A program made the translations under genes and the position numbers. The notes beneath the pieces are model-generated. The model saw only the letters and a program-made list of their open reading frames with translations, was not told where the DNA came from and did not search any database. From Halothiobacillus sp. (GTDB lineage: Bacteria; Pseudomonadota; Gammaproteobacteria; Halothiobacillales; Halothiobacillaceae), in the NCBI GenBank assembly GCA_016278265.1, contig JADQCE010000001.1, forward strand, positions 62,001 to 126,000: a stretch of 64,000 bases of DNA, written 5' to 3'. This document shows, piece by piece, positions 21,733 to 32,102 of this stretch (positions are counted from its first letter, which is position 1; every line of letters starts with the position of its first letter).

Positions 21733-22784
21733 CCGGCCCGGTCCATGAGCTTCACGGCGGCCGGGTTGAGTTCACCCAGTCTCGACAGATTGAGATCGTC
21801 GGCCTTGAACTCGCCCCACTGGGCCAGCGTGTCGGCCGCCGGCACGCCGGGGCGTACCGGGAACTCGTTGTTCACCTGCGCGTACCACTCCTGGGATTCC
21901 TCGGTGGTCATAAACTCGAGCAGTTGTGTGACCGCTTGCGCCTTGTCGCTGGCGGCGACCATGCCGGCCCCGGAGACGTTGACGTGTGCGCCGCGTCCGT
22001 CCTGGTTCGGCCAGACCAGCCGCACGGCGTCGGCGGCTTCGCGGTCGGTGTCGCTGCCATTCTGCATGGCGCCATAGTAATAGGTATTCGCCACGGCGAT
22101 GTCGCACTCGCCGGCGGCCACGGCGCGGATCTGGTCACGATCGCCACCCTGGGGCTTGCGCGCCATGTTGGCGACCAGGCCCTTGGCCCATTCCTCGGTC
22201 CACGCTTCGCCGTGCTCGGCGATCATCGAGGCGACCAGCGACTGGTTGTAGACGTTGTTCGACGAGCGGATGCAGATGCGGCCCTTGAACTTCGGGTCGG
22301 CCAGGTCGGCGTAGCTCGTGATGGCGCCTTCTTCGACGCGTTCCTTGTGGGCGAAGATCACCCGGGCGCGCTGGGAGAGGCCGAACCACTGGTTGTCGAC
22401 GTCACGCAGGTTGGCCGGGATGCGATCGTTCAGCGTCGCCGAGTCGATCGCCTGGAACACGCCGGCTTCCTTGGCACGTTGCAGGTTGCCGGCATCGACG
22501 GTGATCAACAGATCGGCCGGGGTGTTGCGGCCTTCATTCTCCAGGCGGGAGAGCAGGGCGCCGGCGTCGGCCGTCAGCAGCTTGACCTCGATGCCGGTCT
22601 CGTCGGTGAAGCGATCCAGCAACGGGGCGATCAGGTCTTCCTTGCGGGCGGAATAGACGTTCAGGGTGGTCGCGCCCTGGTCGGCGGTGGTGTCGCCGTT
22701 CTGCTCGGCGTTGTCACTGCAGCCGGCAAGGCCCAGGCCGGCAGTGGCGAGGGCCAGGGCGGCCAGCGGGAAAAATCGGGACAT
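21723..22784 (-). CDS. fbpA: Ferric iron ABC transporter substrate-binding protein FbpA
   Basis: 353 residues. The N-terminus MSRFFPLAALALATAGLGLAGC ends in a lipobox (LAGC), so it is probably a lipoprotein facing the periplasm. The mature part is the class II transferrin-like fold: TLNVYSARKEDLIAPLLDRF, the central NTYYYGAMQ with adjacent tyrosines that bind Fe(III) in FbpA/FutA proteins, and AGMVAASDKAQ. ATG 22784 is preceded by AGAGG. Upstream in-frame codons run through the promoter and are not used. A consensus-like promoter with a Fur-type site lies 65-105 bases upstream. Confidence 0.92.
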   Translation of the reverse strand: MSRFFPLAALALATAGLGLAGCSDNAEQNGDTTADQGATTLNVYSARKEDLIAPLLDRFTDETGIEVKLLTADAGALLSRLENEGRNTPADLLITVDAGNLQRAKEAGVFQAIDSATLNDRIPANLRDVDNQWFGLSQRARVIFAHKERVEEGAITSYADLADPKFKGRICIRSSNNVYNQSLVASMIAEHGEAWTEEWAKGLVANMARKPQGGDRDQIRAVAAGECDIAVANTYYYGAMQNGSDTDREAADAVRLVWPNQDGRGAHVNVSGAGMVAASDKAQAVTQLLEFMTTEESQEWYAQVNNEFPVRPGVPAADTLAQWGEFKADDLNLSRLGELNPAAVKLMDRAGWQ

Positions 22785-22848
22785 GATCGAGACCTCTTGG
22801 TCTTGTATGAAAGGCGGTTTGGCTGATTTTTCGATCGAAAGCGAGGCC

Positions 22849-22890
22849 ACGATAGCCAAGCTTATTTGGACTGTCAAATGCGAATCATTC
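22849..22890 (-). promoter_or_regulatory. fbpA promoter with overlapping Fur-like box
   Basis: On the minus strand a perfect -35 TTGACA (22872-22877) is followed after 17 bases by TATCGT (22849-22854, four of six). AATGCGAATCATT (22877-22889) matches 11 of the 13 central bases of the Fur consensus and overlaps the -35, so iron-bound Fur would block polymerase. The outer bases of the 19-bp consensus do not match. Confidence 0.7.
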
Positions 22891-22999
22891 CTAGTCCAAC
22901 TTCGATTGGTATCTGAGTTTCCCCCTCGGGTTTCGGCACGCCAGGCGCGGCCCGCCTCGGCGGGCATCGCCCGGCATGGGCGGCTTGCCGCCGATGGGA

Positions 23000-23941
23000 T
23001 CAGGGTGCGGCCGGCCCCTTGCCCGCGATCGGCAGGTGGTGATCCCAGTAGGGTTCACCGGCAAAACGCTGGGCGAGAAAGTCGATGAAGGCCCGTACCC
23101 GCGCGGACAGGTGACGGGTCTGCGGATAGACCGCGTAGGCGCCGATCTCCGGCCAGGGCACGTCGGTGAGGATGGGCACCAGCCGGCCCTCGGCGACCGC
23201 CCGGTGCAGCAGGAAGGTGGGTTCGATCACGATGCCCGCGCCACGTATCGCCGCCTCGCGCAGGAAATCGCCGTTGTTCACCCGCAGCCGCCGCCGACCA
23301 TGCACCGGCTGCCAGCGCCCCTGGCTGTCGGTGTAGCCCCAGACGCGCGTTTCCGGGACGTTGCTGTAGATCAGGCAGTCGTGATCGGCGAGATCCGCGG
23401 GGTGGTGCGGCGTGCCGAACCGAGCGAGGTAGTCCGGGCTGGCGACGGCGAGATTGCGGATCGGCGCGAGCCGGCGCGCCATCAGGGTGGAGTCCGGCAG
23501 GCTCGCCAGTCGGATCCCGAGGTCGTACCCGTCGGCGACCAGGTCGACCTCGTCGTCATCCAGGTTGAGGTCGAAGTTCACCCCCGGGTGGGCGTTCATG
23601 AACGCGGTAATCGCCGGCTGCAGGTGCATCAGCCCGAACGAGAGCGGCGCGGCGATGCGCAGCACGCCGGAGAGCTCGCCGTGTTCGCGGGTAACCGCCT
23701 CCTCGGCCTGATCGAGATCGGCGAGCAGGCGGGTGGCGCGGTGGTAGAAGTCCTCGCCCGACGGGGTCAGTGCCAGGTGCCGGGTGGTGCGATGCACCAG
23801 TTCCACCCCGAGATGATTCTCCAGCTCCCGCAGGCGCCGACTGACCGCGGACTTTGCGATGCCCAGTCGATCGGCCGCCGCGCTGATCGTGCCGGCATCG
23901 GCGATGCAGATGAAATTCGCCATGGCGGCAAACCGGTCCAT
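23000..23941 (-). CDS. LysR-family transcriptional regulator
   Basis: 313 residues. The N-terminal winged helix (AMANFICIADAGTISAAADRL, IAKSAVSRRLRELE) and the LysR substrate domain (GVLRIAAPLSFGLMHLQP, DEVDLVADGYDLGIRLASLPDS) are standard. It is divergent from a cytochrome b561 gene and a yceI gene; this three-gene arrangement recurs in proteobacteria and suggests the regulator controls both. The effector is unknown. A palindrome in the 128-base spacer is a candidate operator. The gene ends 215 bases from fbpA's start, facing the same way, with no clear terminator between beyond a weak GC stem at 22950-22965. Confidence 0.9.
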   Translation of the reverse strand: MDRFAAMANFICIADAGTISAAADRLGIAKSAVSRRLRELENHLGVELVHRTTRHLALTPSGEDFYHRATRLLADLDQAEEAVTREHGELSGVLRIAAPLSFGLMHLQPAITAFMNAHPGVNFDLNLDDDEVDLVADGYDLGIRLASLPDSTLMARRLAPIRNLAVASPDYLARFGTPHHPADLADHDCLIYSNVPETRVWGYTDSQGRWQPVHGRRRLRVNNGDFLREAAIRGAGIVIEPTFLLHRAVAEGRLVPILTDVPWPEIGAYAVYPQTRHLSARVRAFIDFLAQRFAGEPYWDHHLPIAGKGPAAP

Positions 23942-23962
23942 ATCGTTCTCTTTTCAGCAACA

Positions 23963-23993
23963 GTGTTTTTCGAGATTAGTGATTTAAAAACAC
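23963..23993. promoter_or_regulatory. Palindromic candidate operator in the LysR / cytochrome b561 spacer
   Basis: GTGTTTTT (23963-23970) and AAAAACAC (23986-23993) form a perfect 8-bp inverted repeat separated by 15 bases, centred between the two divergent start codons. Size and position suit a LysR-type binding site. No direct evidence of binding. Confidence 0.5.
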
Positions 23994-24069
23994 CCGCGCA
24001 ACGGCCATGCTCTTTCTGGAATCGAGGGCCGCCGCGAGATGGCCGGTGACGTGACAGGGGAGGGCATCG

Positions 24070-24624
24070 ATGCAGTGGCGCAATACGCGATCGGGGTATG
24101 GCTGGCTGGCCATCGGCTTTCACTGGCTGGTGGCCGTTGCCGTGATCGGCCTATTCGCGCTGGGCTGGTGGATGGTGGAGCTGACCTATTACGACCCCTG
24201 GTATCGCCAGGCGCCGGCCATCCACAAGGCGACCGGCGTGCTGCTGTTCCTGGTGCTGACCGTCCGTTTGCTCTGGCGATTGTTCAATTCCTCGCCCCGT
24301 CCGCTCGGCAAGCCGTGGGAGCGACGGGCCGCGAGCGTGGTGCACGGGGCGTTTTACGTGTTGCTGTTCGCCCTGATGACCGCCGGTTACCTGATTTCCA
24401 CGGCCGACGGCAGCGCGATCGACGTGTTCGGCCTGTTCTCGGTGCCCGCCACCATCAGTGACCTGCCCGAACAGGAGGACATCGCCGGGGACGTGCACCG
24501 CTGGCTGGCCTGGACCGTGATCGGCCTGGCCGCGCTGCACGCGCTGGCGGCCTTCAAACACCACCTGTTCGACCGGGACGACACCCTGCGCCGGATGCTC
24601 CGGCCCGCCGCGTCCCGGCGCTGA
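24070..24624 (+). CDS. Cytochrome b561-family membrane protein
   Basis: 184 residues with four hydrophobic helices (IGFHWLVAVAVIGLFALGWWM; ATGVLLFLVLTVRLLWRLF; VVHGAFYVLLFALMTAGYL; WLAWTVIGLAALHALAAF). Histidines placed to bind two haems b are seen in helix 1 (FHW), before helix 2 (AIHKATG), in helix 3 (VVHGAFY) and in helix 4 (LHALAAFKHH). This is the bacterial CybB type, which oxidises quinol and can act against superoxide. It is followed 35 bases later by yceI, so they are probably one transcript. The electron partner is unknown. Confidence 0.9.
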   Translation: MQWRNTRSGYGWLAIGFHWLVAVAVIGLFALGWWMVELTYYDPWYRQAPAIHKATGVLLFLVLTVRLLWRLFNSSPRPLGKPWERRAASVVHGAFYVLLFALMTAGYLISTADGSAIDVFGLFSVPATISDLPEQEDIAGDVHRWLAWTVIGLAALHALAAFKHHLFDRDDTLRRMLRPAASRR

Positions 24625-24659
24625 AACCAACTGACCTACTAGATAGAAGGAGACGACCC

Positions 24660-25250
24660 ATGCTGACCCGACGCCTTTCCGCCGCCCTGCTGGCCGGCGC
24701 CATCGCCGCGCCCATCTCGGCGCTTCCCGTCACCGCCCAGGCGGCCGAGTACGTCATCGACACCGAGGGGCAGCACGCCTTTATCGAGTGGCGTATCAAC
24801 CACCTCGGCTTTTCCTGGCTGTACGGCCGCTTCAACGACTTCGAGGGCAGCTTCGAGTACGAGGACGGCCAGATCGAGGATGCCAGCGTCGACGTGACCA
24901 TCGACATGGCCAGCCTCGATTCGAACCACGCCGAGCGCGACAAGCACCTGCGCAGTGATGATTTCTTCGATGTGAACGAGTACCCCGAAGCCAGCTTCAA
25001 GAGCACCGGCATCGAGTCGACCGACGACGGCTTCGTCATCACCGGCGATCTGACCCTGCGCGGCGTGACCAAGGAGATCGAGATCGAGGCCGAGAAGATC
25101 GGCGAGGGCGAAGACCCCTGGGGCGGCTACCGCGCCGGTTTTCACGGCACCACCACGCTGACGCTCAAGGACTTCGGTATCGACTACGACCTGGGCCCGG
25201 CGGCGACTACCGCCGAGGTGACGTTGTCGGTGGAGGGTGTTCGTCAGTAG
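24660..25250 (+). CDS. YceI-family periplasmic lipocalin-like protein
   Basis: 196 residues with a signal peptide (LLAGAIAAPISALPVTAQA, cleavage probably before AEYVID). The mature protein has the YceI pattern: YVIDTEGQHAFIEWRINHLGFSW, then DASVDVTIDMASLDSNHAERDKHLRSDDFFDV and ITGDLTLRGVTKEIEI. YceI proteins form a beta-barrel that binds isoprenoid-like molecules such as ubiquinone. Paired here with cytochrome b561, which fits a quinone-related role, though the function is not proven. AAGGAGA just upstream fixes ATG 24660. An intrinsic terminator follows. Confidence 0.93.
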   Translation: MLTRRLSAALLAGAIAAPISALPVTAQAAEYVIDTEGQHAFIEWRINHLGFSWLYGRFNDFEGSFEYEDGQIEDASVDVTIDMASLDSNHAERDKHLRSDDFFDVNEYPEASFKSTGIESTDDGFVITGDLTLRGVTKEIEIEAEKIGEGEDPWGGYRAGFHGTTTLTLKDFGIDYDLGPAATTAEVTLSVEGVRQ

Positions 25251-25290
25251 GTCAATGAGCGGCCCTTGAGGTCGCAGCACTATTCGGCAA

Positions 25291-25322
25291 GCGCCCCGGC
25301 AGATCCTGTCGGGGCGTTTCTC
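25291..25322 (+). terminator. Intrinsic terminator after yceI
   Basis: CGCCCCGGCAG (25292-25302) pairs with CTGTCGGGGCG (25306-25316) with one G-U wobble and a 3-base loop, followed by TTTCTCTT. It lies 41 bases after the yceI stop. Confidence 0.8.
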
Positions 25323-25608
25323 TTGGTGCCCCCGACGCGGGTCACATCGATCTACAGTCTGCGATAACCTTGCCCCGAGACAATTTGGGTGACGCCACCC
25401 GGGATCGATGACTGAATCCCGCCTGTCACACGGATAAGGAGGGAACCGCATAGGTTATGGTTGCCCATTTATCGGATCAACGGGGCGATCAAACGCCCCA
25501 GAGTAGCTAGATTATTCGTCTCAAAGGGCATGGTCGATACAGAAGAAGCCCCTCCTCTGCGGGTTTCTTTAAACCACCGCGTTCCTGAATCGCTAGGTGT
25601 GAACAGCC
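25323..25608. other. Gene-free left flank of the restriction-modification island
   Basis: No convincing gene. Base composition drops toward the restriction gene. It holds a small GC hairpin (GGGGCG 25482-25487 with CGCCCC 25494-25499) and a possible bidirectional terminator for the restriction gene: GAAGCCC (25545-25551) pairs with GGGTTTC (25561-25567) with one wobble, followed by T-rich bases on both sides. I looked for a duplication of this sequence at the right side of the island and found none. Confidence 0.5.
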
Positions 25609-26520
25609 TTAAGTTTCTTTAGCTATTTTTGCCCACTCTGAGGCGAGGACAGGAAGTCGGTCAAAAATCTCGCGACCGAAAAGCACCTCGTCTACGTAAC
25701 CCATATGGAGCATGTCAACAATCCGGCAAAGATACCCCTTTCCGCATACCCACCACGTGAAGTGAGAATCCACGAATAAATAGTGCAAAACCTTCCTTTG
25801 TTCATGTTCATGCAATTCTTCAAGCTCCATGCCGTCAAGAAGTGTCTCATAAACACCGTCGGCAACACGGCTCCCAAAAGTTGTGGTGTAGTAATATTCT
25901 TTTATTTCCCAAATCGCGATCGGGTTGACGACACTTGGAAAAGCGCCATCCACCCTGCGCGCCAGGGTCCTAAGAGGCGCTCTGTCCTTGGTAACTGTGG
26001 TGAGTTCGAGAGGATTGTAATTACACGAAGCTCCATTAGAGGCGTTTTCGATTAGCATGTTTATCATGCCGGTAAAATATGCTGGAGCTTTTTTATCGCC
26101 TTTTTGTTTATTTTCTGGAATCGGACACTTCGTATCTAGCTTGTTTCTTAGCCGTTCGAATTCTCGCCTTGCTCTGGTGGTGTTTTCGCATTCCGCATTT
26201 AGCCGCTTGCCAGTTTTTTTATCATAAAGCGGGGTTGCGTCCATCAAATTGGGTTCAGCGTAATCGTGCAGTAACTCTGAACGAGCTTCAAAATATGCAA
26301 GAAGCTCAACCCCAAGAGCGGTCAGTTTATGATCGACACACAGGTGGCTGGTCCCTAAACCTAGCTTTTCGTAAGCCGACTCTATCTCGGAAATTGTTGG
26401 AACTTTTATCTTTCCTTTCCCAATTTTTCCACGTTCCGTATAGCCAACAGCTTGACTTATCGTGCGAACATCTGCCCAAAACTTTTTGGGTTTCCTTTTG
26501 AAACGGTTAATTGGTTGCAT
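25609..26520 (-). CDS. Putative type II restriction endonuclease
   Basis: 303 residues in AT-rich DNA unlike its neighbours. The protein is not one I can match to a named enzyme. The best catalytic candidate is Asp191 ... Glu205-Ile-Lys207 in the stretch VNPIAIWEIKEYYYTTTFG, the D...ExK spacing of PD-(D/E)xK nucleases, with a conserved-looking SRVADGVYETLLDG after it. Lys-rich N-terminus (NRFKRKPKKFW). The start ATG 26520 overlaps the end of the controller gene by 14 bases, so the two are translationally coupled. It lies divergent from an adenine methyltransferase, the usual C-R / M arrangement. The function is therefore inferred mainly from context. Specificity is unknown. Confidence 0.7.
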   Translation of the reverse strand: MQPINRFKRKPKKFWADVRTISQAVGYTERGKIGKGKIKVPTISEIESAYEKLGLGTSHLCVDHKLTALGVELLAYFEARSELLHDYAEPNLMDATPLYDKKTGKRLNAECENTTRARREFERLRNKLDTKCPIPENKQKGDKKAPAYFTGMINMLIENASNGASCNYNPLELTTVTKDRAPLRTLARRVDGAFPSVVNPIAIWEIKEYYYTTTFGSRVADGVYETLLDGMELEELHEHEQRKVLHYLFVDSHFTWWVCGKGYLCRIVDMLHMGYVDEVLFGREIFDRLPVLASEWAKIAKET

Positions 26521-26749
26521 CGAGATAGCGCCGTATAAGTTCTTGTAGTGGGATGCCTAACGCCGCCGCGACCTGCTGTAGTTCGACTAGGTCAAGCCGG
26601 CGTTCTCCCGACTCGTATTTGCTAACAAAAGACTGCGGCGCGCCAAGTGCATCCGCTAAATCGATTTGTCGAAGGGACTTTTCTTGGCGAATATCCCGCA
26701 ACAGAGCTTGTAATGCAGTACGATGTCGTGAGCGCGGTGATCGGTCCAT
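26507..26749 (-). CDS. XRE-family controller (C) protein of the restriction-modification system
   Basis: 80 residues, the size of restriction-modification controller proteins. The helix-turn-helix spans about residues 24-60 (LRQIDLADALGAPQSFVSKYESGERRLDLVELQQVAAALG). Such proteins bind a palindrome upstream of their own gene, first activating and later repressing C and R so that methylation comes first in a new host. The gene starts right beside a candidate operator. ATG 26749 has no Shine-Dalgarno sequence, and the nearest -10-like box would give a leaderless message. Its 3' end overlaps the restriction gene. Confidence 0.85.
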   Translation of the reverse strand: MDRSPRSRHRTALQALLRDIRQEKSLRQIDLADALGAPQSFVSKYESGERRLDLVELQQVAAALGIPLQELIRRYLDATN

Positions 26750-26755
26750 CTGGTG

Positions 26756-26797
26756 ATTCTAAATCCCCTTGCGGGATATCCCGTTTTAGGATATAAT
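26756..26797. promoter_or_regulatory. Divergent promoters with a shared palindromic operator (restriction-modification control region)
   Basis: CGGGATATCCCG (26772-26783) is a perfect 12-bp palindrome. To the right, TTGCGG (26769-26774) and a perfect TATAAT (26792-26797), 17 bases apart, form a methyltransferase promoter whose start point would fall at or next to ATG 26804. To the left, TAGAAT on the minus strand (26756-26761) would start C-gene transcription at about its ATG (26749), but has no decent -35, as expected for an activator-dependent promoter. The palindrome sits inside the M promoter and upstream of the C promoter, so one site could repress M and activate C-R. Confidence 0.6.
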
Positions 26798-26803
26798 GAG
26801 CTC

Positions 26804-27709
26804 ATGAATGCACAAAACTCAACGATCCTCGACACGGATCTTTTCGGGGGGCCAGGCTTAGGTTATCGGCGTCCAAGCGGGTCCTTGCTCAAATGGATCG
26901 GGAACAAGTATAAGATGGCTGAGCAAATCTGCTCATACCTTCCTAAGAATTTCGGGACGTTTCACGAGGTTTTCCTGGGAGGCGCAGCTATACTCGGAAC
27001 CGTTAGCCCCAAAGAGGGGGTTGGTTCTGATGCTTACGGCCCGCTGATAGAAATATGGGAGGCCGTTCAAAATAATCCTCAGAAAGTAATTAATTGGTAC
27101 GCCGAAAGATATGAACAGTATTATTCGAGCGAGGACCATAAGGCTCAATATGAGCAAATTAAAGCCCGTTTCAATAACAAACCAAATGGTCCGGATTTTC
27201 TGTTCCTCTGTCGGTCTTGTTATGGTGGTGTAATTAGATTTCGCAAATCTGATGGCTATATGTCAACTCCGTGCGGCGTGCATAAACCTCTTCGCGTTGA
27301 AACCTTCGCAAAGCGAACTCTGGAATGGAGTGATCGATTGCAGGGGTGTCAATTTGTGCAAGCCGATTTTCGGGAAATGATGGCAGCAGCAAAGCCTGGA
27401 GACGTAATCTATTGTGACCCCCCTTATGTAGACAGTCAGGCGATTCTCTATGGCGCTCAGGACTTTTTGGTGTCTGATTTGATGGCTGCAATCGCAGAGT
27501 GCAAGGATCGCGGGGTGCATGTCATGCTTAGCATCGATGGGACAAAAAAATCTGGGAATCGAGTATGTGATGTCCAAATCCCGGACGGCCTTTTTGAGAC
27601 TGAAATCGATATCCATGTGGGCCGCTCGATGCTGAAAAGATTCCAGATGAACGGAAAATCACTTGAGAGTGATGTTGTTACTGATCGTCTATTGCTGACA
27701 TACGCTTGA
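26804..27709 (+). CDS. DNA adenine-N6 methyltransferase (D12/Dam class) of the restriction-modification system
   Basis: 301 residues. The N-terminal LLKWIGNKYKMAEQI (29-43) and HEVFLGGAAILG (about 54-65) are the AdoMet-binding motifs of D12-class enzymes. The catalytic DPPY is at 205-208 (IYCDPPYVDS). It methylates adenine N6 at the site cut by the partner nuclease. I chose ATG 26804 over GTG 26753, because the perfect TATAAT at 26792-26797 lies inside the longer reading and would be upstream of any transcript; the message is probably leaderless. AT-rich like the R and C genes. The specificity cannot be read from the sequence. Confidence 0.9.
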   Translation: MNAQNSTILDTDLFGGPGLGYRRPSGSLLKWIGNKYKMAEQICSYLPKNFGTFHEVFLGGAAILGTVSPKEGVGSDAYGPLIEIWEAVQNNPQKVINWYAERYEQYYSSEDHKAQYEQIKARFNNKPNGPDFLFLCRSCYGGVIRFRKSDGYMSTPCGVHKPLRVETFAKRTLEWSDRLQGCQFVQADFREMMAAAKPGDVIYCDPPYVDSQAILYGAQDFLVSDLMAAIAECKDRGVHVMLSIDGTKKSGNRVCDVQIPDGLFETEIDIHVGRSMLKRFQMNGKSLESDVVTDRLLLTYA

Positions 27710-27896
27710 TTCCGAAAAAGTCATAACGATTTTCTGCTGGAAGGTGTCCCCAACGGGTTTGGAGTAGTTTAACCACTCGATATTGAGAGAATAAGTGTCC
27801 TTAGTTGGACAGCTTTCCATGCCCGGTCGGACCTAACTAAGTGATTGATATGAGGCGTCTTTAGGCTCTGATCCAGTGTGAAAAGGGGTCAGAAGT

Positions 27897-27930
27897 CTTT
27901 AAGACGCTTCTAGCCTTTAAGACGCTTCTA
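27897..27930. repeat. 16-bp direct repeat
   Basis: CTTTAAGACGCTTCTA occurs at 27897-27912 and again at 27915-27930, separated by two bases. It lies at the junction between AT-rich island DNA and the GC-rich hairpin block. It could be a remnant of an insertion or of a REP-type element. Confidence 0.7.
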
Positions 27931-27989
27931 TGATTTCGCACGCTTTCAGCGCATGTGCTGATTACCAAGCCGCATTGGTAGGCGCGCGA

Positions 27990-28165
27990 GGCACTTTCTC
28001 TTGCTTGCCCAAGAGAAAGTGCCCAAAGAGAAGGGCACCCCTCGCCTTGGCCCTACGGGCTTCCCTCCCGTCCGGGGTGCCGCAGACGGGTCGGTTCGAC
28101 GCGACGTCCTGTCGCGGCGAACCTCGGGTCGGCGTCCATGCCGCCCCGACCCTGCGGCACCCCGG
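27990..28165. repeat. Composite hairpin/REP-like block
   Basis: Three nested or adjacent stems. GGCACTTTCTCTT (27990-28002) pairs perfectly with 28011-28023. CCGGGGTGCCGCAG (28072-28085) plus GGGTCGG (28088-28094) pair with CCGACCC and TGCGGCACCCCGG (28146-28165) apart from a short bulge. Inside that, GTTCGACGCGAC (28094-28105) pairs with 28111-28122 at 11 of 12 positions. The AAGAGAAAGTGCCCAAAGAG wording resembles intergenic repeats dispersed in many proteobacterial chromosomes. Function unknown; a structured RNA or a target of a REP transposase are options. Confidence 0.6.
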
Positions 28166-28447
28166 CCGCTCGGCAAGGGCGAAGGGGGCAGTCGAGCCTG
28201 ATAACTCGGTGCCATGAATAATTTGCTTTAAGCCGCTTATGGCTAGGCACGCGCCGTTGGCGCGTTTAGAAAAGTCCCTCGCGCGCCGGGCACGGCGGTA
28301 GCTCATACCCACTCCGCGCAACCGGCGTGCGAAACGACTCTCCCCCGGTATGCCCTCCCTATCGGCTGATGGATGTCCTCCCGGTTGGCGACTACGCTTG
28401 TAAGCGATGGCCGGAGACGTTTTTACCGAATCACCGTCGGAGGCCCC

Positions 28448-29542
28448 ATGACCAATCGCGACGATATCCAGAACCGGGCCGCCGGCGCGATCATGGGGGC
28501 CTTCATCGGCGATGCCCTGGGGCTGGGCCCGCACTGGTACTACAACCTCGACGAGTTGCGTCGGGACTACGGCGACTGGATCGACGATTACATCGACCCC
28601 AAGCCCGGTCGATACCACGAGGGCCTCAAGGCAGGCCAGCTCTCCCAGGCGGGGATCGTCCTCGACTTGATGCTGCGTTCACTGGTCGAGTCGAACGGTT
28701 ACGACGAAGATGATTTCTGTCGGCGGCTGGATGAGGACCTCTTCCCAATGCTCGATGGCACCCCGGCCTCTGGTCCCGGCGGTTACACCAGCCAATCCAT
28801 CCGCGATGCCTGGCGAAAACGTGTCGAGCACGGCTTGCCCTGGGGCGAAGTCGGTGGTCACGCCGACACCACCGAAGCCATTGAACGCACGCTTGCCATT
28901 GCCGTGCGCTATGCATTCGAACCCAAAACACTGGCGGCAGCCATTGCCGACAACACCGTCCTGACCCAGGTGGACGAAACAGTGGTCTCCATGACCGTGG
29001 CGTACGGTGCGCTGCTGGGCCTGCTGGTTCAGGGGCAACGTCTGGATACGGAAATCTCCGACAAGCTGATGGCCCTGGTGAAAGGCGGTGAGTTGCCGTT
29101 TCATGCGGTCACCAGTGATGATCTTCAGCCGCCCCAGCCGGGGCAGCCGGACCCGCCCCGGGCAGGTCGTTTTGCCTCGCCCGATGCCCTGCTGACACCT
29201 TCCTGCATAGCAGCAGCGGCTGCCGATCCCGGGGTGCGAATCGAGCCGCCCTGGAAAGTCTCCCTGGTGTACGGCATGCCCTGCGCCATTTATCACCAGC
29301 TTCCGGCGGCTTACTACCTCTCGGCAAGATTTGCCGACGATTTCGAGGCGGCGGTATTGCACGCGGTCAATGGCGGTGGCCAGAACATGGCCCGGGCGAT
29401 GCTGACCGGTGCGCTTACGGGGGCACAGGTGGGTCTCAGCGGAATCCCGAAGCGGTTTATCGACGGATTGGAAAACGTCGGCGAGTTACAGCAGCGCGCC
29501 GAGCAAGTGGCCTCGGCGGTGGCAGCCGACGGTCTTCCATGA
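28448..29542 (+). CDS. ADP-ribosylglycohydrolase-family protein with altered metal motif
   Basis: 364 residues. The start MGAFIGDALGLGPHW (about residues 16-30) is the GDALG motif of the DraG/ADP-ribosyl-hydrolase fold, an all-helical enzyme that removes ADP-ribose from proteins or small molecules using two magnesium ions. The C-terminal motif, normally containing D-x-D, reads NGGGQNMARAMLTGALTGAQVGL, so those metal ligands are missing. The protein may bind but not hydrolyse, or may use a different chemistry. CGGAGG before ATG 28448 fixes the start. It is the first gene right of the restriction-modification island, but has ordinary chromosomal composition. An intrinsic terminator follows. Confidence 0.8.
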   Translation: MTNRDDIQNRAAGAIMGAFIGDALGLGPHWYYNLDELRRDYGDWIDDYIDPKPGRYHEGLKAGQLSQAGIVLDLMLRSLVESNGYDEDDFCRRLDEDLFPMLDGTPASGPGGYTSQSIRDAWRKRVEHGLPWGEVGGHADTTEAIERTLAIAVRYAFEPKTLAAAIADNTVLTQVDETVVSMTVAYGALLGLLVQGQRLDTEISDKLMALVKGGELPFHAVTSDDLQPPQPGQPDPPRAGRFASPDALLTPSCIAAAAADPGVRIEPPWKVSLVYGMPCAIYHQLPAAYYLSARFADDFEAAVLHAVNGGGQNMARAMLTGALTGAQVGLSGIPKRFIDGLENVGELQQRAEQVASAVAADGLP

Positions 29543-29567
29543 TGGCTTTTCACGTCGACGTGCGATG

Positions 29568-29600
29568 CCCCCGGCAAGGTCGCCCTTGCCGGGGGTTTTT
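29568..29600 (+). terminator. Intrinsic terminator after the ADP-ribosylglycohydrolase-like gene
   Basis: CCCCCGGCAAGG (29568-29579) pairs perfectly with CCTTGCCGGGGG (29584-29595), loop of four, followed by TTTTT (29596-29600). Confidence 0.9.
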
Positions 29601-29834
29601 GGTCTGGCGTCTGTCGCGCCGCAGAAACTGTCGGGGCGTTTTTCCGCCTGACCTTTAAAAGGAGGCCCGCCTTTTCTATCGCTTTGCGACCCGCAGTGGA
29701 TCTCAGGGCGGTATGTCGGGCGGTGTAAGCTTGAAGATCCTCGTGTGGATTGGGATAGATGGACCCACATGGGATGAGCACCACGGGTCGCGTAAGCCGC
29801 GCTGATTTGCGCGCTGATTTATGGGGAGCGAATC

Positions 29835-30722
29835 ATGCAGGAAGGTTTCGGAGAAGGGGTGTTGTCTATCTGGCAGGCCCCTCTGTACCAGGCAGGCGAA
29901 ACGACCATCCACTTGAGTCAGTTGGTGATAGCGCTTCTGGTCATTGTCCTGGGCTTTTTGCTGGTGCGTTACGTGGGGGGCACGCTATCGCGTCGCATCG
30001 ACAAGGATTCGCGCGTATCCGCCCAGCGGGCGCACGTGATCCGCAAGATGGTCGCCTACGTGGGCTATCTGACCATCGTCCTCATGGCCCTCCCGATCGC
30101 CGGCATTCCGATTACCGTGTTTGCCATCCTGGGCGGCGCGCTGGCCATCGGCGTGGGTTTTGGTGCCCAGAACCTGCTCAACAACCTGATCTCGGGCATC
30201 ATTTTGCTTGTCGAACACCCCATCAGGATTGGCGATGTCGTTGAACTGGAGACCGACAGGGGGCGCGTCGAGGATATCGGCAATCGCTGCGTGCGCATCC
30301 GGCGTTTCGATGGTGTGCATGTGTTGGTGCCGAACAGTTACTTTCTCGAGCAACGCGTCACCAACTGGACACTGGTGTCCAACGAGGTGCGCGGTGGGGT
30401 AACGGTGGGCGTGGCATACGGCTCACCCACCCGCCGGGTGGAGCAGCTGATGTTGCAGGCCGCGATGGAGCAGAGGGCCATTGACGATAGCCTGGCGAAT
30501 CCCGAGGTGCTGTTCGAAGATTTCGGCGACAACAGCCTGGTGTTCACCGTGTTTTTCTGGACACGTGTTCAGGTCGCGACGGACCTTCGTCGACTCCAAT
30601 CGACCATCCGATTCCGTATCGATGAGCTGTTTGCCGAAGACGGTATCGTGATTGCCTTCCCACAACGTGATGTGCACCTGGATATCAGCGATCCCCTGCC
30701 ACTTCGCATCCTCGATGAGTGA
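29835..30722 (+). CDS. Small-conductance mechanosensitive channel, MscS family
   Basis: 295 residues, close to the classic MscS length. Three hydrophobic helices are seen (LSQLVIALLVIVLGFLLVRYV; MVAYVGYLTIVLMALPIAGI; and the pore helix VFAILGGALAIGVGFGAQNLLNNLISG with glycine-alanine packing). The cytoplasmic vestibule follows, starting HPIRIGDVVELETDRGRVEDIG and including RRFDGVHVLVPNSYF. It opens under membrane tension to release solutes in osmotic down-shock. The last residues FPQRDVHLD match the C-terminal barrel. ATG 29835 has a GGGGAG ribosome site nearby. The single-gene unit ends at a terminator near 30864-30899. Confidence 0.93.
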   Translation: MQEGFGEGVLSIWQAPLYQAGETTIHLSQLVIALLVIVLGFLLVRYVGGTLSRRIDKDSRVSAQRAHVIRKMVAYVGYLTIVLMALPIAGIPITVFAILGGALAIGVGFGAQNLLNNLISGIILLVEHPIRIGDVVELETDRGRVEDIGNRCVRIRRFDGVHVLVPNSYFLEQRVTNWTLVSNEVRGGVTVGVAYGSPTRRVEQLMLQAAMEQRAIDDSLANPEVLFEDFGDNSLVFTVFFWTRVQVATDLRRLQSTIRFRIDELFAEDGIVIAFPQRDVHLDISDPLPLRILDE

Positions 30723-30863
30723 ACGGGGCGAAGGGGGCAAGCCCCTTTCCCTGCGGCCCATGTCGCGGCTCGGCCCGCGAAAGATGCGCGCCGCCCAGCC
30801 AGCCGGCCTGGCAGGGAGGCGGTGGGAAGCGGGTACCTGCGGTAGGCGAATGCCTGAACCAAT

Positions 30864-30899
30864 CAAAACCCCGGCAAGGGTTTCCCTGTCGGGGTTTTG
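30864..30899. terminator. Intrinsic terminator downstream of mscS
   Basis: CAAAACCCCGGCAAGGG (30864-30880) pairs with CCCTGTCGGGGTTTTG (30884-30899) apart from one unpaired A and one wobble. It carries A-runs and T-runs on its two sides and could act in both directions. It lies 141 bases after the mscS stop. The stretch 30723-30863 shows nothing else. Confidence 0.75.
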
Positions 30900-30943
30900 C
30901 TTTGTTTCTGCGCCGGGGACGGGACGCTGGTCGTGCCGTTCGA

Positions 30944-31090
30944 TCAGACGTCGAACGGCACCCCGACCGTCACGATCCGCGGCTTGCCGACTCGGAATAT
31001 CGCCGGGCGGATCGCTGCGGCGGAGGGGGCCGTGGGGTACTGCTGAAGAAGGGGGCGGTTCTGCAGTAAAGTGGCGGCCGAAATGACCAT
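30944..31090 (-). CDS. Possible small protein of 48 residues
   Basis: In the 408-base gap between mscS and the antiporter gene, the minus strand from ATG 31090 to TGA 30944 reads a 48-residue protein with sensible codon use and a compact ending (IFRVGKPRIVTVGVPFDV). There is no obvious ribosome site and no family I recognise. It could be the remnant of a longer gene. Low confidence. Confidence 0.2.
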   Translation of the reverse strand: MVISAATLLQNRPLLQQYPTAPSAAAIRPAIFRVGKPRIVTVGVPFDV

Positions 31091-31130
31091 TGATGGACTC
31101 GGTTGACGAGTCCCGAGCGAGGAATCTGAG

Positions 31131-32102
31131 ATGTTGATGCCTGTGTTGGCGGTGCTGGCGGGTCTGGTGCTGCTGGTCTGGAGTGCCGATCGGTTTGTGG
31201 ACGGGGCGGCGGCCACCGCCAAGCATCTGGGCATGTCGCCCCTGCTGATCGGCATGGTGATCATGGGGTTCGGCACCTCGGCGCCGGAGCTGGTGGTGTC
31301 GGTGATGGCGTCACTGGATGGCAGTCCCGGGATTGCGTTGGGGAACGCCTATGGCTCGAACATCGCCAATATCGCGCTGATCCTCGGCCTGACGGCGGTG
31401 ATCGCACCGATCGCGGTCCACTCGCAGGTGATTCGTCGCGAGATGCCCATCCTGCTGGCGGTCACGGCCGTGGCCGCCTTGCAGGTCTACGACGGCGCGG
31501 TGACCCGCATCGAGGGCATCGTCCTGCTGGTGCTGCTGGTGGGGCTGTTGGCCTGGAACATCTACCAGGGGCGCCGCGGACAGGTCGATGCGCTGGGTGG
31601 CGAGGTCGAGCAGGAGCTGATTGCGCACCCCATGCCGCTGAAGAAGGCCCTGGTCTGGGTGGCGATCGGCCTGTTGTTGCTGGTGGCCAGTTCGCGTCTG
31701 CTGGTGTGGGGCGCGGTGGATATCGCGCAGTTCTTCGGCGTGTCGGATCTCGTCATCGGTCTGACGGTGGTGGCCATCGGCACGTCATTGCCCGAATTGG
31801 CCTCATCGATTGCCGCGATTCGCAAGAACGAACACGATATGGCGCTGGGCAACATCATCGGGTCGAACCTGTTCAATACCCTGGGCGTGGTCGGCCTGGC
31901 CGGCGTGATCCACCCGATGGTCGCCGAGCCCGAGGTCTTCACGCGTGACATGCTGGTGATGGGCGTGCTCACCCTGGCCCTGTTCGTGTTCGCCTACGGT
32001 TTTCGCGGCCCGGGACGGATCAATCGGATCGAAGGTGCGGTGCTGCTGGTGGCCTTCGTTGCATACACCACGTACCTGTTGAGCACGACGTTCGTCGCCT
32101 GA
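31131..32102 (+). CDS. CaCA-family Na+/Ca2+ antiporter (YrbG-like)
   Basis: 323 residues, typical of YrbG. Two inverted repeats of about five helices each carry the ion-binding alpha repeats: GFGTSAPELVVSVMASL with GNAYGSNIANIALILG in the first half, and AIGTSLPELASSIAAI with GNIIGSNLFNTLGVVG in the second. Each repeat has the essential Glu in the APEL or LPEL motif. It exchanges a cation, probably calcium, against sodium or protons across the inner membrane; the ion is inferred from the family. The start ATG 31131 is weakly supported by GAGG upstream. The stop is one base before the next gene, so they are co-translated. Confidence 0.92.
   Translation: MLMPVLAVLAGLVLLVWSADRFVDGAAATAKHLGMSPLLIGMVIMGFGTSAPELVVSVMASLDGSPGIALGNAYGSNIANIALILGLTAVIAPIAVHSQVIRREMPILLAVTAVAALQVYDGAVTRIEGIVLLVLLVGLLAWNIYQGRRGQVDALGGEVEQELIAHPMPLKKALVWVAIGLLLLVASSRLLVWGAVDIAQFFGVSDLVIGLTVVAIGTSLPELASSIAAIRKNEHDMALGNIIGSNLFNTLGVVGLAGVIHPMVAEPEVFTRDMLVMGVLTLALFVFAYGFRGPGRINRIEGAVLLVAFVAYTTYLLSTTFVA

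Follow-up and report, generated by a model that had tools for sequence, protein, structure and literature searches.

This locus raises two questions: which kind of restriction-modification (R-M) system its three low-GC genes encode, and how a methyltransferase gene (M) and a divergent controller-endonuclease pair (C-R) could be regulated from the 54 bp that separate the C and M ATG codons. The window (the whole 64-kb stretch of DNA that was analysed, part of one contig of a 2.73 Mb host genome) has a GC content of about 47% between 26 and 28 kb, versus about 65% in the flanks. All three reading frames are intact, and M is divergent from the overlapping C-R, which confirms the genes, their low GC, their overlap and their orientation as reported in a first-pass annotation. 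The gene set is probably a horizontally acquired phage-defence R-M island, and the proposal of an acquired C-controlled system, made in the same annotation, is supported.

The island and its enzymes

The island lies between a YceI-like gene on its left (24660-25250) and an ADP-ribosylglycohydrolase-like gene on its right (28373-29542), both named from sequence only. By blastn, the stretch 25252..28277, which comprises the island and some 350 bp of a genus-wide repeat, was missing from the junction of these two genes in the congener G007, where window position 25251 is joined to 28278 with 22 bp in between. R was present in one of 11 genus genomes, that of the window itself, and this distribution together with the near-empty junction means that the island was either gained here or lost there.

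The same junction was found to be a variable insertion spot within the genus (congener loci L103-L106). In G002 it holds a PhzF-like gene; in G005, a protein of 723 aa that ends in a SEC-C-like cysteine tail, together with an IS3-like remnant and a PhzF-like gene; and in G001, a protein of 518 aa and an IS3-like transposase, all these names being based on sequence. The repeat at 27912-28267 is of about 280-350 bp and contains internal inverted repeats (for example 27990-28003 / 28010-28023, with perfect 14-nt arms). The host genome carries it in many copies and in both orientations, as do nine of ten congeners, and it may represent a genus-specific mobile or REP-like element.

The R gene (25609..26520, minus strand) encodes a restriction endonuclease of the BclI family of 303 aa, with the Pfam domains DUF7690 and DUF7687 and a match to the PADLOC Type II endonuclease profile REase_II PDLC03423 (E=3.6e-57); searches of NCBIfam and PHROGs gave zero matches. 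This is the "unfamiliar nuclease" of the first-pass annotation. The best annotated relative comes from the [Bacillus] caldolyticus NEB414 plasmid pBcl1, where the genes are arranged as M<- C-> R->; its R is 43% identical to that of the window (tblastn, 96% query coverage, E=6e-56). As the C protein of pBcl1 is 100% identical over 77 residues to C.BclI (PDB 2b5a), we took the pBcl1 operon to be BclI, and the window R is homologous end to end with the R of that operon. Residues D191, E205 and K207 were invariant in 48 homologues and form a putative active site, D191-X13-E205-x-K207, with a PD-(D/E)XK-like spacing. An AF2 model of R, built on an alignment that excluded three plasmid-derived rows, reached a pLDDT of 92.3. 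Comparison of its fold with the PDB gave no significant match, the best being BsoBI (E=0.094); the leading sub-threshold matches (E>=0.09) included BsoBI, BstEII, XPF and PspGI. Searches of the PDB with the R sequence (phmmer and profile) yielded nothing meaningful.

The M gene (26804..27709, plus strand) encodes a D12-class adenine-N6 DNA methyltransferase of the Dam/BclI family, 301 aa long and with a conserved catalytic DPPY motif. It matched PF02086 (E=4.9e-27), TIGR00571 (above the cut-off) and the PADLOC profile MTase_II (E=2.2e-68). The M of pBcl1, likewise divergent from C-R, is homologous to it end to end, with 48% identity.

The specificity of BclI is TGATCA, and by homology the target of the window system would be the same. 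Site avoidance as a test of this target was dropped, TGATCA being depleted neither in the window (o/e 0.92), nor in the genome, where its density equals that of congeners without R, nor in the congeners themselves. Near the relatives of the system TGATCA had an o/e of 0.575, the fourth lowest among 64 palindromes, and GGATCC was lower (0.405), so that this depletion is not specific. The island sits in an 8.7-kb stretch free of TGATCA (22502-31258), whereas the TGATCA sites of the window are on average about 1.3 kb apart; the gap may be due in part to the low-GC insert.

Predicted operators and promoters in the control region

The controller gene (26507..26749, minus strand) overlaps R by 14 nt and encodes an XRE/HTH protein of 80 aa with the recognition region PQSFVSKYESGERRLDL. 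It matched HTH_3 (E=2.5e-13) and the PADLOC Control_protein profile, and its matches in the PDB include C.BclI and C.AhdI, although its identity with C.BclI is only 30% and the recognition helix differs. A scan of genome contigs disclosed 239 relatives of R, 80 of which were kept for a comparison of layouts. Most of these 80 displayed a divergent M and an overlapping C-R, in about ten phyla that include Planctomycetota, Pseudomonadota, Acidobacteriota, Verrucomicrobiota and Chloroflexota, and the C proteins of the relatives are of the same class as that of the window. Thirteen relatives had M and R without a recognised C. Divergent M and R with no recognised C gene were seen in L018, L024, L027, L067, L072, L076-L079 and L083, and in L062 and L066 (Acidimicrobiia) both genes lie on one strand, M directly 5' of R, with no C gene. 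A distant relative of R (about 21%) on the Marinobacter salarius plasmid pHL2708Z5 (L003) is accompanied by two methyltransferases, one of them Dam-like, and by a C-like HTH gene.

We gathered 68 control regions and sought the inverted repeats that they share, without naming any in advance. TATCC-N7-GGATA came first among all those tested, being exact in 28 of the 68 regions against an expected count of 0.0 from dinucleotide shuffles, and its chief variant was TATTC-N7-GAATA. In the 64 kb of the window, two sites matched with at most one mismatch, and these are the predicted operators 1 and 2. Operator 1, TATCCCGTTTTAGGATA (26777..26793), is distal from C, is a perfect copy centred at 26785 (-36 of the C start) and lies in the M promoter, whose 17-bp spacer it occupies. 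Operator 2, AATCCCCTTGCGGGATA (26762..26778), is proximal to C, has one mismatch and is centred at 26770 (-21 of the C start); it lies between the C -10 and operator 1 and overlaps the M -35. The C/R promoter is therefore predicted to carry two C-protein operators, with their centres 15 bp apart. A second site at +15 (at least 8/10) was present in 12 of 54 loci. Shuffles that preserved the first site, including the two letters that the +15 site shares with operator 1, gave a mean of 0.63, and none of 500 reached 12. Since the window is where this spacing was first seen, the enrichment is support rather than proof, and a clear second site is limited to those 12 relatives. A subgroup (L070, L082 and L037) departs from the 15-bp spacing, its two full operators being about 27-28 bp apart; the dimers may be arranged differently there.

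The palindrome CGGGATATCCCG (26772..26783), the TATAAT at 26792-26797 (plus strand) and the TAGAAT at 26761-26756 (minus strand) are all present as the first-pass annotation had claimed. What did not hold was its suggestion that a single 12-bp palindrome does both jobs: two predicted TATCC-N7-GGATA sites take its place, and the palindrome is the seam at which their inner half-sites overlap as GGGATATCCC. Perfect 12-bp palindromes are common here (28 in the window), so that a palindrome alone is weak evidence, and CGGGATATCCCG was rejected as an operator, GGGAT-N0-ATCCC being found in two of the 68 regions.

That C reads TATCC-N7-GGATA and regulates itself is our proposal, supported indirectly by the covariation of residues and operators. 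C proteins of the SGER type went with a TATCC operator in 36 of 43 cases, six being mixed and one TATTC, and the SGEQ or SGEL proteins with TATTC in 17 of 17. On the R tree, a residue change accompanied four of the five independent operator changes (sign test, p=0.125, a value that reflects how few such changes there are). In pBcl1 and pBM69, C has another helix and TATCC-N7-GGATA is absent. The best operator match near M and R in the 13 relatives without C was 7-8/10 in 11 and 9/10 in two, with none at 10/10.

Neither promoter was listed by a sigma-70 scan of the window at a fixed threshold, and both were identified through family conservation. When the family was aligned on operator 1, TTGAC appeared (on the complement, columns 20-24), followed after exactly 17 bp by TATnnT, and this conserved TTGACA-17-TATnnT is a predicted sigma-70 promoter of M with operator 1 as its spacer. 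In the window, the -10 of M is TATAAT (26792..26797, plus strand), as expected for the consensus promoter that had been annotated, but the -35, TTGCGG (26769..26774, plus strand), has only three of the six consensus positions, the family consensus being TTGACA. On the other side, TA...T is conserved at columns 32-37 and corresponds to the -10 of the C/R promoter, in the window TAGAAT (26756..26761, minus strand). The annotated absence of a -35 from this promoter was supported, the position being taken by ACGGGA (26779-26784), and many relatives have a weak C -35 (TTGGGA) within operator 1.

The predicted +1 of C (column 44) falls on the A of its ATG, at 26749. An in-frame ATG or GTG lies at columns 43-48 in 44 of 54 loci, that is, at the predicted +1 or no more than 4 nt away, and a Shine-Dalgarno core was found in two of these 44. 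The position of the start codon and the near absence of such cores suggest that the leaderless C that had been proposed, as predicted from the -10 spacing, is probably a feature of the whole family. For M the corresponding claim is supported in part: in the window the predicted +1 (26804) coincides with the A of the M ATG and a leaderless transcript is predicted, but such a spacing was found in a minority of the relatives, most of which have longer leaders.

Proposed working of the switch

We consider it quite probable that the island is an acquired, functional-looking Type II R-M system of the BclI kind, governed by a C switch with two overlapping operators and divergent overlapping promoters. 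The working that we infer for it, including binding and its order, activation as opposed to mere de-occlusion, and leaderlessness, would be as follows. In a newly entered cell, RNA polymerase would use the M promoter (TTGCGG-17-TATAAT) to make a leaderless M mRNA, and the host would be methylated first; the C/R promoter, having no -35, would at this stage be silent or weak. C would accumulate slowly until a dimer occupied the perfect distal operator 1 in the M spacer and turned M off. With operator 1 bound (centre at -36), the C/R promoter would be freed and probably activated, so that a leaderless C mRNA and, after it, R would be made. As C rose further, a second dimer on the imperfect operator 2 (centre at -21) would repress C/R and bring the system to a steady state.

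A switch based on repression only would differ from this reading in one step: C would repress M through operator 1 and itself through operator 2, and C/R transcription would rise once M had been silenced. We regard this as rather unlikely. The divergent promoters do overlap in the family alignment, relief of promoter competition has a precedent in Kpn2I (PMC6237814), and with the weak -35 of many relatives lying inside operator 1, a dimer bound there could hinder rather than help the polymerase. Against it, the window promoter, which is essentially without a -35, suggests that a true activator is needed, and the geometry of a distal and a proximal site fits activating C systems.

It is improbable, in our opinion, that the island is a decayed or silent R-M remnant retained by chance. 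The undepleted TGATCA and the occurrence of R in one of 11 genus genomes would be compatible with such a remnant, but the three frames are intact, and D191, E205 and K207 of R, the DPPY of M and the promoter elements are all conserved. Finally, that one C dimer on CGGGATATCCCG serves both promoters is very hard to believe, for although the palindrome is perfect, lies between the two -10 boxes and would have counterparts in C proteins with single sites (PMC6237814), it is kept in two of 68 regions, against 28 with an exact TATCC-N7-GGATA, and is accounted for by the overlap of two sites.

Comparison with known systems

We suggest, with somewhat less than even confidence, that the window system belongs to a widespread class of C-controlled R-M systems that combines an undescribed operator with overlapping divergent promoters and a leaderless C, here together with a leaderless M. 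To the operator of this class we would assign, as tentatively, the sequence TATCC-N7-GGATA, or TATTC-N7-GAATA where the Arg of the recognition region is Gln or Leu, with a duplication at 15 bp in some members, the window system among them. Both the operator sequence class and the pairing of overlapping divergent promoters with a leaderless C may be new. Ten C-box motifs were reportedly listed by Sorokin et al. in 2009, and the operator can be called new only provisionally. The BclI enzyme family would in this way gain a well-defined control region that is widely shared, with a single predicted 17-bp operator acting both as the spacer of the M promoter and as the C/R promoter's upstream site. 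For this region we offer a residue-to-base rule, Arg going with C:G and Gln or Leu with T:A.

With BclI itself the window shares the layout and, at the identities given above, both enzymes. The control regions differ: the intergenic region of pBcl1 has 132 bp, compared with the 54 bp between the ATGs of the window, and it carries a GACT..AGTC-like box, TGTAGACTTATAGCCTACA (L001 2696-2714), and not TATCC-N7-GGATA. A footprint of C.BclI is said to have been published by Sawaya et al. in 2005. By sequence, then, the enzymes of the window are of the BclI kind, and its control module is of a C-protein kind that belongs to another class than C.BclI.

In AhdI, PvuII, Csp231I and Esp1396I there is also a small HTH controller that overlaps or adjoins R, with two operators. 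However, M has a separate promoter region in these systems, whereas that of the window shares the 54-bp region, and their boxes (GACT/AGTC or CTAAG/CTTAG) are unlike those found here. Leaderless C transcripts are documented for PvuII (PMC2997769), AhdI (PMC5333194) and Csp231I (PMC4824078). The operators of Esp1396I are about 15-16 bp apart (counted from the oligonucleotides in PMC3758141), which makes the 15-bp spacing of the window operators feasible.

The proposed control logic would resemble the EcoRV scheme (PMC6237814) combined with a leaderless C of the AhdI/PvuII type. EcoRV has divergent overlapping C/R and M promoters like those of the window, and its high-affinity distal C site overlaps the met promoter (PMC6237814, PMC5333194); the second of these papers calls the effect of C on M indirect, so that the two disagree on whether C directly represses M. 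Its enzymes and operator sequence are unlike those of the window, and its C mRNA is reported as not leaderless (PMC5333194). According to modelling, promoter overlap of the EcoRV type and a leaderless C of the AhdI type work against each other (PMC5333194), yet in the many natural cases gathered here divergent promoters that overlap occur together with a predicted leaderless C start, the very arrangement that was judged unfavourable. Kpn2I is like the window in that M and C diverge and their promoters overlap; C.Kpn2I represses M, and activation is indirect, through relieved promoter competition (PMC6237814). It differs in that the binding site of C.Kpn2I is within the C reading frame and R is transcribed from a promoter of its own, whereas both predicted operators of the window are intergenic. 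The individual principles are already known, and the system refines a known kind, of which its control region is a distinctive variant.
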